Origin: Planctomycetales bacterium
Lineage (GTDB): Bacteria; Planctomycetota; Planctomycetia; Planctomycetales; Planctomycetaceae
Length of the DNA: 64,000 nucleotides
Direction: 5' to 3'
Assembly: GCA_026400835.1 (NCBI GenBank)
Contig: JAPLOA010000080.1
Coordinates: 62,001-126,000, forward strand
Below the pieces are notes generated by a model. The model made no database searches and had not been told where the DNA came from. It saw only the letters and a program-made list of their open reading frames with translations. A program made the translations under genes and the position numbers. Shown in pieces: positions 22,664 through 27,909 of the stretch; the first letter of the stretch is position 1; each line of letters opens with the position of its first letter.

Positions 22664-22815
22664 GCGTATCGAGAGTTCATGGAACACTGTGGCAGAAAGC
22701 TGTGAATAGACTTTCGTTCGAGGCATTCAATGTGAGATCCACTCGCCATTCGAATCTGGCATTTGTTGCTGCGGTTCGGATATAATCGTTGTTCTTCGCC
22801 AAAGAGAGCCGCACT

Positions 22816-23055
22816 ATGAATCGAATCATTATGAATTCCAAAGTCAGCAGCGACGGAACGCTGCGACTCCTGTTGCCACTTGGGCCGGCAGAAGCTGACC
22901 ACGAGGTTCGCATTATCGTCGAATCTGTGGCCGGTGAAGAGGTCTCTTCAAAGGAGGAATGGGAGGCATGGGTAGATGCAATTTCTGGTTCATGGCAAGG
23001 CGATTTTGAGCGACCGCCACAGGCAGACTATGAACAAAGGGCGGCATTGTCGTGA
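22816..23055 (+). CDS. Antitoxin of a VapBC-like pair
   Basis: A 79-residue protein from ATG 22816 (an upstream in-frame TTG at 22789 is less likely; AAGAGAG precedes the chosen start). The N-terminus reads as a short DNA-binding beta strand region (SKVSSDGTLRLLLPL), the C-terminus as a charged toxin-binding tail (EEWEAWVDAISGSWQGDFERPP). Its stop overlaps the toxin start by four bases (GTGA), typical of type II toxin-antitoxin operons. The assignment rests mainly on size, order and overlap with the PIN toxin; the antitoxin class is not certain. Confidence 0.78.
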   Translation: MNRIIMNSKVSSDGTLRLLLPLGPAEADHEVRIIVESVAGEEVSSKEEWEAWVDAISGSWQGDFERPPQADYEQRAALS

Positions 23056-23456
23056 AGTATCTGCTTGATACCAACACCTGTATAGAGTGGCTTTGTTTGA
23101 GTCATCCCCAATTGGTGATGCGAATCAAGCAGGAGACGCCTGCAGACTTAGCCATCTGTTCAATCGTTGTCTCTGAATTGATGTACGGTGTTGAACGCGC
23201 GTTGCCGGTTCATAAAGCCAACAATCGCAACAAAGTCGACCAGCTTCGACAGAAGTTCGTCTCCCTTCCATTTGATGATGCAGCGGCAGAAGTTTCCGGA
23301 GCTGTTCGAGCTCATTTGGCGAGCCAGGGAACTCCGATTGGCCCAAATGACCTACAGATCGCCTCGATTGCATTGGCGAACAAAATGATTTTGGTTTCCC
23401 ATAACACCTCAGAATTCGCAAGAGTCCCGGGCCTGTCGATCGAAGACTGGCAGTGA
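23052..23456 (+). CDS. vapC: PIN-domain toxin, VapC-like ribonuclease
   Basis: A 134-residue PIN domain starting at GTG 23052. The acidic metal-binding residues are present: Asp in the N-terminal YLLDTN, Glu in VVSELMYG, Asp in GPNDLQIASIA, and the following SHNTSEFARVPGL. VapC toxins cleave structured RNA, often initiator tRNA or 23S rRNA. Translation is coupled to the antitoxin by overlap. The pair is isolated between lnt and a YdcF-like gene, and next to a toxin remnant, consistent with horizontal acquisition. Confidence 0.92.
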   Translation: MKYLLDTNTCIEWLCLSHPQLVMRIKQETPADLAICSIVVSELMYGVERALPVHKANNRNKVDQLRQKFVSLPFDDAAAEVSGAVRAHLASQGTPIGPNDLQIASIALANKMILVSHNTSEFARVPGLSIEDWQ

Positions 23457-24441: not shown

Positions 24442-25566
24442 CTACTCTCCGGTTTCTGAACTGAAGTCTGACTCGGCCGACGTTGCAGCAATCTGGCTTC
24501 CACAATCAACAACTTCAGATGCCACTTCCTGCAATAGTGTCGTTGCGTATGTTCCGGCCGAGAGATCAAAACAAACTTCCAGAGCTCCGTCATCAGTAAG
24601 ACTCACGGAGACGTTTGATGGGAACTCCAGCATCTTTCGGCGAACGCCCGAAGTGAGTTTTGCATATCGTTCAAAATCCTGCGGTCGCAAGCCCAGCTTC
24701 TCCATCGCAGCCAGCTCCATCTGTTCGATGTCGCCGCCAGCCGCCAACATCTCAGGTCCGGGCATCGGTCCAGCAGGAACAATGTCTGTCGTGACAGCGC
24801 CGTCCGGGTAGCGATATGGCTTCGTGCCACCTTTTCGAATCACGACATCGCCGGATTGCGGCAGGCCAGCATTCCCGGCCGCCACTCGCTGTGACAAAAC
24901 CAGATTGAAGATCGACGACTGAACAGCACTCAACGCGAGACGTCGAAGAGTTCGTGATTGATTTTCCGGCCAGTGATCTTTCGGCAGTTTGCCCTTGAGA
25001 AATCGCAGACCATCAACAACCGTATTTCCGCCATGTCCAAATCTCTGCGGACCAAAATAATTCGGCAGACCGCTCTCCACCAATTGATTCAGTCTCGCCT
25101 CAACTGACTGCTGTTCCACAGTCGTAAACGAACCCGTCGCAGATCGAAGTACGAGTCGAAATCGATTTCCCTTGAGATGTCCAGTTTTCAATTTGTTCTG
25201 ATGAAACGTCGAACTGATGACTGTGACTTCATCGGAATTCAGTCGCTCGACATTAATCGCCAGACGCTTCGGGATCGAACAATACTGCCGAGTGATCGCA
25301 TATCGATCCTTCTGCCCGGCCAGGCTCACATCCTTCGAAGGGATTCCGAGCGTCCTGATGATTCGACTCACCAACTCCGGCGATGAGACACCGCGCTTTT
25401 CGATCCAAAGATAAGCATGCTCACCCGCACCTGACAGTTGATAAGCGGGAATCTCTTCAACCTGAAAGTCTTCGATCGTTGTTCGAATTCGACATGGCCC
25501 GATCACAGGTTGATGAAGTGAGGGAGGCTGAATAATCCGGGACAACGTCTCCGCGGGGAGTGCCAT
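24442..25566 (-). CDS. truD: tRNA pseudouridine(13) synthase TruD
   Basis: A 374-residue enzyme that isomerises uridine 13 of tRNA-Glu. The diagnostic AGQKDRYA holds the catalytic Asp, followed by NYFGPQRFGHGGNTV and LSAVQSSIFNLVLSQRV; the TRUD insertion domain lies between. ATG 25566 begins MALPAETLSRIIQPP, matching the natural start; the frame is open 72 codons further upstream, but that stretch covers a large inverted repeat and is not protein-like. A convincing ribosome site is not seen. It is operonic with the YdcF-like gene. Confidence 0.92.
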   Translation of the reverse strand: MALPAETLSRIIQPPSLHQPVIGPCRIRTTIEDFQVEEIPAYQLSGAGEHAYLWIEKRGVSSPELVSRIIRTLGIPSKDVSLAGQKDRYAITRQYCSIPKRLAINVERLNSDEVTVISSTFHQNKLKTGHLKGNRFRLVLRSATGSFTTVEQQSVEARLNQLVESGLPNYFGPQRFGHGGNTVVDGLRFLKGKLPKDHWPENQSRTLRRLALSAVQSSIFNLVLSQRVAAGNAGLPQSGDVVIRKGGTKPYRYPDGAVTTDIVPAGPMPGPEMLAAGGDIEQMELAAMEKLGLRPQDFERYAKLTSGVRRKMLEFPSNVSVSLTDDGALEVCFDLSAGTYATTLLQEVASEVVDCGSQIAATSAESDFSSETGE

Positions 25567-25732
25567 TGAATGCCAACTTTGATTTTGAGTAACGTGGTGG
25601 GAAAACAGTTCGACAAATACTGTAACCGATTCGCTACCCCGGAGCGCTGAGGAAAAAGCGGAGCAGGGCAGGGGACCGGCTTTTTTCAGGTTTGAGCGAG
25701 CCAATCCTCGAATAGCTCGACTTCGGAGTGGT

Positions 25733-25789: not shown

Positions 25790-26095
25790 GCTACGAGGAA
25801 AGATGGCGACTCCGTCCGAGAAAGTATTGGTCAGGGACTTTCGCTGAGTTTGAAGATTGGAATGCTATTTGACGTCCGCTGTACCGGAAATCGTCCAGGA
25901 AAATCGATACGGTCAAATGCAGTGTTCAAATGCCGACTAAATGCACAACTCATAGGCAACACTGCGAAGAAAGTGTTGAACGAGCGATCAAGCAGGTCGG
26001 CATCGCAGAAACGCGGACATCATCCGAACGAAAAACCACGCCATGAAACACGGCAATTCTGTGACAGCAGTGTTTTGAATTCTTCTTGGTTTCGT

Positions 26096-26112
26096 TTGGC
26101 ACGCCTCTTGCT
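26096..26112 (+). promoter_or_regulatory. Sigma-54 (RpoN) promoter
   Basis: TTGGCACG-CCTC-TTGCT is a near-perfect match to the sigma-54 consensus (YTGGCACG-N4-TTGCW). The GG at 26098-26099 and GC at 26110-26111 are 12 bases apart, as needed for -24/-12. Transcription would begin near 26123. This is the only match of this quality I found by eye in the window. Confidence 0.78.
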
Positions 26113-26122
26113 TTGGAGTGAT

Positions 26123-26322
26123 TCAGGAGGCAGTCAACGGTGTGGTGGGACTCGTTGGTTGCATAAACTCCGCAGGGGTTTGAAGGAGGGGAAGGTCAGG
26201 AAACTCGCCTGTTCCCGCTCACATGGGTGCGTGGCCCGAGCGGGAAGCTCCTGCCGAGAGAATTGCTTCGGTGGTTCTCGCGGTGGAAAAGGGGATGGAT
26301 TCGTCCATCCCCTTTTCTGTTG
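26123..26322 (+). ncRNA. Candidate structured RNA transcribed from a sigma-54 promoter
   Basis: From the predicted start the sequence folds into a closed structure. CAGGAG (26124-26129) can pair with CTCCTG (26248-26253) as an outer stem. Inside it are CAACG/CGTTG, AAACTCC-gca-GGGGTTT (with a G-U pair), and the nine-base TTCCCGCTC (26212-26220) with GAGCGGGAA (26238-26246). After it come CCGAGAGAA/TTCTCGCGG with one mismatch, then a perfect terminator. The length is about 195 bases and there is no protein-like frame. I recognise no known class (not 6S, tmRNA, SRP or RNase P by their signature motifs). An alternative is a leader with a short peptide, see findings. Confidence 0.6.
26287..26320 (+). 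terminator. Intrinsic terminator closing the structured RNA unit
   Basis: A perfect 13-bp stem, AAAAGGGGATGGA (26287-26299) with TCCATCCCCTTTT (26304-26316), on a TTCG tetraloop, then CTGTT. The U-run is partly within the stem. Confidence 0.85.
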
Positions 26323-26742
26323 CGCTATGCTTTTTTTGCGAGCTATCAAACAACATGAAGATGTTGTGTCTATCGAGCCGTTGCATTCTCAAATGCACGC
26401 GAGTTTCGGAGATCGCATCATCAGTGACGATCACCTCAGCATGACGCTTTGAAGGTGCCATTTGCCAGTTATTTCAATATGAATCTGGCTCCTGCCGGAC
26501 CGCCGCCATTGCCGCGTCTTGCAGATAGAACTCGCTGCGGCTTCACTGCATGACGCCCGGAAATTGCTCGAATGCGATTCGATGAAAACAGGCTTCCTCG
26601 ATCTGAAACCTCTGCGAACTCAATTCCTCGGCGGAAAAACGGCCGGATATTCGCCGAAAACAAGGGATAGCCCTGAAATCTCACCTGTGCCATGATACGG
26701 TAGATTTCGTTGATCAGCATGGATGTTGAGGATTCTCGGAAC
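26323..26742. other. Gap between the RNA candidate and the L,D-transpeptidase gene
   Basis: No gene, repeat or clear promoter was recognised in these 420 bases. ORFs on both strands lack family features. Confidence 0.4.
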
Positions 26743-27909
26743 ATGAAACCGTTCGCCATGAAGTCGGGTGGTCGAGTGCAATTGCACTGGTGGGTTGTCG
26801 CAGGTGTCGCGGCGGCGTTCTTTGTATGGAGCTTCGACCTCATTCCGCGAGTTCACACGGCCTCCAGCGGATCGCTGGCCACATCGGACACAGAGAGTGG
26901 CACTGCTCCATCACAGGACGAAGCCTTCGACGATGACTGGTCTCCTCAAGTTAAGGGCACCGGCGTTTCGGAGCCAGCAGAATCAGAACTGGAACTGCAG
27001 GACCCTTTCCGCCAAACCAGTAGCTCATCAGTACGACCAGCACATCACGAGCTGACGGAACCTGAAGAGGTCGCTGCAGAAACAAGACTCGCGGACAGCG
27101 TGCAGTCGAACAAACAGACTCAACGTGATCCCAATGTCACGGGTGCTGCCTATGAAGGCGATGAACCATCGTCTCCGAGCCTCTCCTCGGCAGACCAGAC
27201 GCCCAAAGTTTTGCCTGCTGACGTTGCAAGTAAGTTGAGGACAATCGATGACTGCCTGAAAGATGATCTCATTCTCGATGCACATGCGGAACTCTCAGAG
27301 ATCTACTGGAAGCACCCCGAACTCCGCAGCACCATTGATGATCGCATTCGTGAGACAGCCACATTGATCTTCACCAGTAATGAGCGTCAGTTTGGAACGC
27401 CTCATCTCGTGGAATATGGAGAGACTCTGCAGGCGATTGCCAAACAGTACGATGTCCCATGGCAGTATCTGGCACTCCTGAATCGAGTGACACCGGAGAA
27501 ACTGCAGGCTGGGCAGGAACTGAAAGTCATCCGCGGCCCGTTCGGTGCCGTTGTCGATCTCAGTGCCTTCACATTAACTGTCCATGCGCATGGCTGGTAT
27601 GTGAATAAGTACCGCATCGGCACAGGTCGAGATCACAAGACGCCTCTGGGTGAGTTCGTCGTTGAGGACAAACTGGAGAACCCGACCTGGTACAATCCCG
27701 ATGGAGGAATTGTGGAACCCGATGATCCGGAGAACCCGCTTGGAGAATACTGGCTGGGACTCGGAGACCACATCGGCATTCACGGCACAAATGACCCATC
27801 AACGATCGGTCGCGCCGCATCAAGGGGCTGCATTCATCTCGGCGATTCGGAGATTGAAGAAGTTTTCAGCCTGCTGAGTACAGGGTCGAAAGTTCTCATC
27901 CGCAAATAG
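26743..27909 (+). CDS. LysM plus L,D-transpeptidase (YkuD) protein, membrane-anchored
   Basis: A 388-residue envelope protein. One membrane segment near residues 18-36 is followed by an acidic, disordered linker to about 155, a helical region, a LysM domain at about 222-268 (LVEYGETLQAIAKQYDVPWQYLALLN) and a YkuD domain to the end with H347 (IGIHGTNDP) and catalytic C363 (SRGCIHL). LysM binds peptidoglycan and YkuD makes L,D cross-links or attaches proteins to the wall, which fits a planctomycete with peptidoglycan. ATG 26743 has GAGGA about ten bases upstream; ATG 26719 is an alternative. It converges on the AAA gene with an eight-base gap. Confidence 0.93.
   Translation: MKPFAMKSGGRVQLHWWVVAGVAAAFFVWSFDLIPRVHTASSGSLATSDTESGTAPSQDEAFDDDWSPQVKGTGVSEPAESELELQDPFRQTSSSSVRPAHHELTEPEEVAAETRLADSVQSNKQTQRDPNVTGAAYEGDEPSSPSLSSADQTPKVLPADVASKLRTIDDCLKDDLILDAHAELSEIYWKHPELRSTIDDRIRETATLIFTSNERQFGTPHLVEYGETLQAIAKQYDVPWQYLALLNRVTPEKLQAGQELKVIRGPFGAVVDLSAFTLTVHAHGWYVNKYRIGTGRDHKTPLGEFVVEDKLENPTWYNPDGGIVEPDDPENPLGEYWLGLGDHIGIHGTNDPSTIGRAASRGCIHLGDSEIEEVFSLLSTGSKVLIRK

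Follow-up and report, generated by a model that had tools for sequence, protein, structure and literature searches.

A conserved small RNA with a sigma-54 promoter element in Planctomycetaceae, related to the 3' ends of ammonium transporter genes and predicted to pair with their translation starts

A probable sigma-54 driven brake on amt translation

The 7.58 Mb genome of a Planctomycetales bacterium (assembly GCA_026400835.1) carries a predicted small RNA (sRNA) gene within a stretch of 64,000 nucleotides, bases 62001-126000 of contig 78, that was analysed as a whole and is referred to as the window. The best explanation of this gene, and in our judgment a probable one, is that it encodes a trans-acting sRNA activated by sigma-54 and an NtrC-type regulator, related to the 3' untranslated region (3'UTR) of ammonium transporter (amt) mRNAs and repressing amt translation. 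An sRNA braking amt in this way would be the simplest account because it covers the promoter, the origin and the complementarity together. RNA polymerase carrying sigma-54 would transcribe the sRNA (26123-26320) and the amt genes alike. A single activator, most likely a nitrogen regulator of the NtrC type, would act on both from a TGC-N11-GCA dyad about 143-177 bases upstream. The seed UCGCCUGUUCC (26205-26215) would base-pair with amt mRNAs around the ribosome-binding site and start codon and lower their translation; amt synthesis would then be braked by the very signal that induces amt. The 3' module of the RNA would be derived from, or shared with, the amt mRNA 3' end, where processing may yield a 3'UTR-derived autoregulatory RNA; in the genome of the window it is a separate gene. 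The elements concerned are the following.

25942-25958, forward strand: candidate enhancer dyad TGC-N11-GCA (TGCACAACTCATAGGCA), centred about -173 from the predicted transcription start (+1); conserved placement.
26096-26112, forward strand: sigma-54 -24/-12 promoter element TTGGCACGCCTCTTGCT; pattern match and conservation in relatives.
26123-26320, forward strand: small RNA of about 198 bases, predicted +1 near 26123 and end past the terminator; fold, covariation and conservation.
26125-26172, forward strand: 5' domain, a helix (26125-26129/26168-26172) and a hairpin (26130-26143/26150-26162) with the loop region GGUGGGA; 9 of 13 hairpin pairs changed on both sides.
26173-26253, forward strand: helix CAGGGGU (26173-26179)/GCUCCUG (26247-26253), which encloses the 3' module of free copies; in all 13 sequences it is 100% paired, with one of 7 pairs doubly changed.
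26204-26215, forward strand: region CUCGCCUGUUCC, predicted to pair and complementary to the ribosome-binding sites of amt; duplex, run and shuffle comparisons.
26212-26246, forward strand: core hairpin with a stem (26212-26220/26238-26246), an inner stem (26225-26228/26234-26237) and the loop GCGUG (26229-26233); common to free and amt forms.
26254-26283, forward strand: third hairpin; 5 of 12 pairs changed on both sides.
26287-26316, forward strand: intrinsic terminator with a 13-base-pair stem and TTCG loop; fold and counterparts in relatives.

Promoter and fold of the RNA

A first-pass annotation of the window had proposed a near-consensus sigma-54 promoter followed by a strongly folded, free regulatory RNA of no recognised class. 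The promoter is confirmed as an exact element: in the whole window only TTGGCACGCCTCTTGCT fits TTGGCAC-N5-TTGCW, without a mismatch, and it also has the GG-N10-GC arrangement. At one mismatch, 0.85 chance matches to the pattern are expected in the window, so that the motif by itself is weak proof and its significance comes from conservation. The element stands upstream of 19 of the 20 free or relic RNA copies examined, with at most one mismatch except in G122 and G102, which have two. Its distance to the core is 108-111 bases in the 12 genus genomes that have the ordinary form of the RNA. The exception is the RNA of G011 (L029/L078), which differs in its 5' part and is preceded by no visible sigma-54 element. 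The gene rpoN is present in the genome, and the RNA is predicted to be transcribed by sigma-54 polymerase.

The folding energy of 26123-26322 is -96.2 kcal/mol, against -72.8 (standard deviation 4.4) in 200 dinucleotide shuffles (z -5.3). The 9-base-pair stem, the hairpin 26254-26283 and the TTCG terminator described at first all have counterparts in relatives. The outer CAGGAG/CTCCTG stem did not stand: it is the minimum-energy choice for the window sequence but is broken in relatives, where the conserved pairing joins 26125-26129 with 26168-26172 and 26173-26179 with 26247-26253 instead. In a comparative fold of 13 free RNAs 96.4% of cells are paired and 23 of 56 pairs are doubly changed, in an alignment that includes two distant sequences (L109, L087) and was fitted to the model. 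None of 500 shuffles came as high on any of five measures, and slid controls were 38-46% paired. An 11-sequence MAFFT alignment is 97.9% paired with 11 pairs doubly changed; 500 shuffles reach three measures in 0 cases, one in 7 and one in 29, for a structure that was derived from those same sequences. Helix 4, a short CAGG/CCUG hairpin that would mask the seed, is invariant in the 11-sequence set, and its variation in the 13-RNA set stems from the two distant sequences. The loop of the core hairpin is GYGUN in 23/23 sequences of alignment A4.

Coding potential was assessed only by eye. The idea of a short leader peptide behind an early GGAGG was dropped because the changes among relatives follow base pairing. 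An antiterminator made of the G-rich linker and the terminator, also considered by eye, is unsupported because the linker hardly varies whereas the terminator does.

The absence of a recognised class was upheld, with no match to Rfam (release 15) at the gathering threshold in the whole window. Of 8 sub-threshold matches in 26000-26420 (up to E 10), the best (E 0.0011) lies on the opposite strand and scores 24 bits against a cut-off of 44. For 6S RNA (RF00013) there is no match at the locus, the genome's one 6S match being at G000:C68 (49.3 bits), and an RNA of the RsmZ/Csr type was considered and found no Rfam support. The glnA/Downstream-peptide (glutamine) riboswitch has no Rfam match here either. 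Conserved internal loops together with a terminator could be read as a riboswitch or attenuator of the downstream gene, a reading to which we give almost no credence, as the neighbouring genes differ between genomes and no Rfam riboswitch matches.

Distribution in the family

A DNA search of 40 genomes recovered the RNA in the genome of the window and in 14 of 17 other members of its genus, and in 0 of 22 others. When the relatives are aligned, the -24/-12 element, the body and the terminator are conserved and there is little likeness outside. Covariance model R1, built from 11 sequences, matched in 20 of 150 family genomes; over 294 genomes across the phylum, under stricter filters, it found the genome of the window only. 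The 3'-module model R2 matched 32 of 170 family genomes, of which 30 were kept; the weak matches in G109 and G120 were dropped as neither promoter nor amt was present. The covariance search of relatives that had been suggested thus returned the RNA or module in 30 of 170 genomes, with many compensatory changes. By genus, these are 16 of 18 genomes in g1, 8 in g56, 3 in g61 and 3 in g43. The g1 genomes in which the RNA was not found, G015 and G017, are 89% and 61% complete.

A scan of GTDB genomes for the exact core pattern gave 23 matches outside the window, all of them a free RNA or an amt end. Eleven are free RNAs whose core follows a sigma-54 element at a distance of 106-116 bases, 10 are at amt (L067 being decayed) and 2 have an unclear 5' side, since L061 starts at +1 and L078 differs. 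The records are titled Planctomycetaceae, Planctomycetota, Planctomyces, Fuerstiella and Candidatus Kuenenia; those named Fuerstiella have the module at amt. In L061, L073 and L076 the RNA occurs in records titled Candidatus Kuenenia stuttgartiensis and is otherwise found in differently named planctomycetes; these names may be wrong.

Within the genus, free copies occupy at least four genomic contexts. Occurrence in several contexts might also be expected of a conserved non-regulatory terminator structure or a selfish repeat. This is very unlikely, although no search for flanking repeats was made, the core being present in one copy in its own genome (at up to 3 mismatches) and the promoter and dyad travelling along with the RNA. 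The conservation of promoter, dyad, fold and terminator in relatives supports, at the level of sequence, the free sigma-54 driven regulatory RNA of the first-pass annotation.

The form at amt 3' ends

Relatives also have the 3' module and its terminator, without the 5' domain, at the 3' end of amt genes; this form occurs in four genera. In the genome of the window the module is a free gene and does not lie at an amt 3' end. A sigma-54-like element precedes amt at each of the 12 intact loci that carry the module, at a distance of 1.5-1.7 kb from the module; three of these elements are exact, six have one mismatch and three have two. The amt stop codon falls inside the module in 4 of 10 genes and 4 to 91 bases before it in the other 6. 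Among 10 module-bearing amt genes the module is on average 91% identical and the coding DNA 65%, and the module is the more alike in 45/45 pairs. The first-pass annotation had named nitrogen, phosphate, stress or surface signals; the amt link, which it had not seen, narrows these to nitrogen.

The placement across four genera, the stop codon inside the module and the complementarity between the leader and 3' end of one mRNA would also suit a cis-acting element of the amt 3'UTR, serving stability or a 5'-3' contact within the mRNA, with the free copies as leftovers. We hold this to be improbable: in at least four genus contexts the free copies keep promoter, fold, terminator and mostly the dyad, with compensatory changes; leftovers would decay.

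Complementarity to amt leaders

The segment TCGCCTGTTC is identical in 23/23 sequences of A4. Many amt leaders end in ..AGGACAGGCGAA-AUG, ..GGAACAGGCGAA-AUG or ..CAGGCG-AUG, which are complementary to UCGCCUGUUCC. A Watson-Crick run of at least 7 bases with the seed occurs in 13 of 15 amt leaders and 2 of 151 other leaders, a comparison weakened by amt starts that were set by hand and by a seed idea taken from two amt leaders already seen. The 151 control leaders have a mean energy of -9.5. None of 1000 shuffled seeds did as well, and the best RNA segments in a sliding scan cover 26201-26221. CUCCUG (26248-26253) had been considered as an anti-Shine-Dalgarno seed and was given up, as the scan places the amt complementarity at 26201-26221 instead.

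Amt leaders were also compared under one rule. The median energy is -15.5 for 28 amt leaders of set A and -8.4 for 26 leaders from genomes in which the RNA was not found (set B), and runs of at least 7 occur in 13/28 and 1/26, respectively (p 2.5e-6). Set A holds 27 of 30 loci (L178, L179 and L184, partial or low-scoring, being left out) and two genes, with one of 29 lacking a scorable start; it includes three amt genes of G015 and G017, and the seven module-bearing amt genes of g56 that entered the hand-set test are outside it. Set B holds 28 of 30 loci (L212 and L213, partial, being left out), two of them lacking a scorable start. Without G015 and G017 the difference between the sets keeps a p of 5.9e-6, and when near-identical and module-bearing leaders are removed as well (17 left) it is 2.6e-4. 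In these sequences, complementarity tracks the presence of the RNA. The two amt leaders of the window's own genome give duplexes of -19.8 (amt1, GGGGAUAAGGCGAUG) and -13.1 (amt2, AACAGGCAAUG).

Several observations weigh against an amt brake. The runs in these two leaders are only 6 and 7 bases long, the ensemble predicted for the full-length window RNA keeps most of the seed in base pairs, and co-folding with them adds no more than -1.5 and -3.0 kcal/mol. Among the control leaders two reach -25.8 and -19.6, while some amt leaders from genomes with the RNA show poor pairing (G122 -8.0, one of G061 -6.0, one of G005 -6.3, G008 -10.2). The free RNAs of G002, G009 and G013 have a changed seed, and no promoter is visible before the G011 copy. 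In the window's genome ACAGGCGA-N0-8-ATG occurs 45 times against 15 for the reversed control, a threefold excess. The combined pattern of promoter and dyad is also found at places that are neither RNA nor amt, and in genomes in which the RNA was not found. Finally, the conserved 5' domain and the GCGUG loop have no role in an amt brake.

A rival reading is a sigma-54 driven structured RNA that mainly binds a protein or other partner through the loops GGUGGGA and GCGUG, the amt complementarity being secondary or a relic of origin. Changes fall in the stems and spare both loops, even in the RNAs with an altered seed (L109, L087 and L245), and the fold is strongly constrained. The amt form, though, is without the 5' domain, TCGCCTGTTC is constant in A4, and amt leaders match better where the RNA exists; we consider partner binding as the main function rather unlikely.

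About 2 of 30 inspected ACAGGCGA-N0-8-ATG sites look like gene starts, and the search for further targets with ACAGGCGA near ATG yielded one clearly plausible gene start (L138) and one possible one (L147). At L138 (G000:C35:3659), a possible second target, a gene MQIPYSRREMLAASS.. of 468 amino acids begins after AAGGACAGGCGAG, a 9-base seed match. As a separate observation, the RNAs L109, L087 and L245 (G002, G009, G013) are diverged free RNAs which keep the fold, the GGUGGGA and GCGUG loops and the sigma-54 promoter and have a different seed, possibly a change of target after duplication. G009 and G013 have an amt-module in addition to the diverged free RNA elsewhere in the genome.

A candidate enhancer shared with amt

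The search for an upstream enhancer site that had been suggested turned up a candidate, a dyad whose position hardly shifts across most promoters. TGC-N11-GCA was the best of 99 combinations of dyad and spacing, occurring in 21 of 25 promoters against 2.7 expected; its spacing is that of the NtrC consensus. Other dyads were weaker: GCA-N4-TGC (10/25 against 2.5 expected), GCA-N5-TGC (8 against 2.4), GGCA-N4-TGCC (3 against 0.1) and TGT-N7-ACA (5 against 0.9). The dyad centre lies at -172 to -178 in most promoters. Within -180 to -168 it is found in 12 of 18 free or relic and 7 of 10 module-bearing amt promoters, with shuffle means of 0.16 and 0.095, in a range picked after the placement was seen and among related sequences that are not independent. 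Four more free promoters have it at -162, -163, -184 and -186, and the L093 and L248 promoters are without it. The promoters of L090, L092 and L097 were chosen by place among several two-mismatch sites.

Among amt genes without the module, 15 of 26 have a sigma-54-like site. The ten in g1, own amt1 included, all have the dyad at -143 or -145; the five of other genera are without it. In the window's genome the promoter and dyad pattern occurs at three places, one of which is the RNA, with none in the reversed control; over 21 genomes there are 42 matches against 7 for this control. L109, the RNA of G002, and the amt genes L113 and L114 are among them. Because sigma-54-like promoters and dyads are common to both, the RNA and amt of this genus look co-regulated in their promoter sequences; the activator would most likely be of the NtrC type.

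Origin of the free genes

Loci in which amt is reduced to fragments while promoter and module are kept occur in one of three g61 genomes (G079) and two of three g43 genomes (G122 and G102, by eye), and other genomes of g61 and g43 have an intact amt with the module. At L089 of G079, pieces of amt in different frames and then an intact module come after an exact sigma-54 element; a large internal deletion has left only Pfam positions 2-44 and 361-399 of the transporter. The gap between promoter and module is 251 and 274 bases in G122 and G102 (L093, L248), with traces of the amt C-terminus by eye and no tblastn match there. G111 has a free RNA, and G130 and G061 have an intact amt with the module. 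Model R2, run over 63 loci (60 from amt searches), gave strong matches only at L159-L161 and at the free RNAs L109 and L087; four further matches, with E values of 0.24-0.95, were taken as chance.

The decayed loci are likely to reflect loss of amt in place. This is unproven because the flanks fetched around intact and decayed loci in g43 and g61 do not match and are not syntenic. We see about an even chance that loss of the amt coding region between the sigma-54 promoter and the 3'UTR module, on more than one occasion, gave rise to the free sRNA genes of this family. Such a loss would yield a stand-alone repressor of the remaining amt genes with the old promoter, enhancer spacing and terminator.

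Two side observations concern the transporters. L066/L249 and L069, compared with L059 (g56), have a similar neighbouring gene and the module; their amt is about 47% like that of L030, against about 77% for other g56 genes, which may mean that the transporter was exchanged and the promoter and module kept. In G018, G024, G028, G037 and G045, open frames with ammonium transporter domains span about 1200-1600 residues and may encode sensor fusions.

Neighbouring genes

The RNA gene is placed between two protein-coding genes, both outside the RNA.

24442-25692, reverse strand: truD (Pfam PF01142); start provisional.
26710-27909, forward strand: gene for a protein with LysM and L,D-transpeptidase (YkuD) domains (Pfam PF01476, PF03734); start provisional.

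Elsewhere in the window, at 22789-23456, two short overlapping open reading frames, the second beginning MKYLLDTNTCIEWL, look by eye like an antitoxin and PIN-domain toxin pair.

Comparison with known regulatory RNAs

Published work on regulatory RNAs in Planctomycetes seems scarce. NrsZ and CrcZ of Pseudomonas are sigma-54 driven sRNAs with a -24/-12 promoter and an activator, as proposed here, and they have other targets; by sequence they were compared through the Rfam scan only. No such RNA is described in the titles and abstract openings listed from open-access literature on planctomycete sRNA, sigma54 and amt; PMC2864571 names a Rhodopirellula-1 motif, which stood outside the comparison.

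The layout of the amt form is that of OppZ and CarZ of Vibrio cholerae (PMC7398697), although the host mRNA is here amt with a sigma-54-like promoter and the module is also an independent gene. RNAs of this type lie at the 3' end of the mRNA that they regulate; the module has such a 3' position at the 12 intact amt loci of relatives, whereas the window's genome has a free gene. They pair with the translation start of their own mRNA, which is predicted here from complementarity. They are released by RNase E and depend on Hfq; the likeness drawn here is one of layout. The enterobacterial GlnZ, derived from glnA, represses sucA (PMC9731577). As proposed here, it is an sRNA made from the 3' end of an mRNA for nitrogen assimilation and tied to nitrogen limitation, but the target predicted here is amt. 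NfeR1 of the alpha-proteobacterium Sinorhizobium, which targets ntrB and is repressed by NtrC (PMC10746234), is also a free sRNA: it responds to nitrogen and pairs at a site of translation initiation inside the nitrogen network, as is predicted here, where the target would be amt and not ntrB.

Significance

For this RNA promoter, enhancer candidate, seed and target come together, and all are directly testable. If the proposed mechanism is true, an ammonium transporter would be braked by an RNA made along with it. The relatives can be ranked step by step: module at the 3' end of an mRNA, module behind a decayed gene, independent sRNA gene. Such a graded series makes the birth of sRNA genes testable inside one bacterial family.
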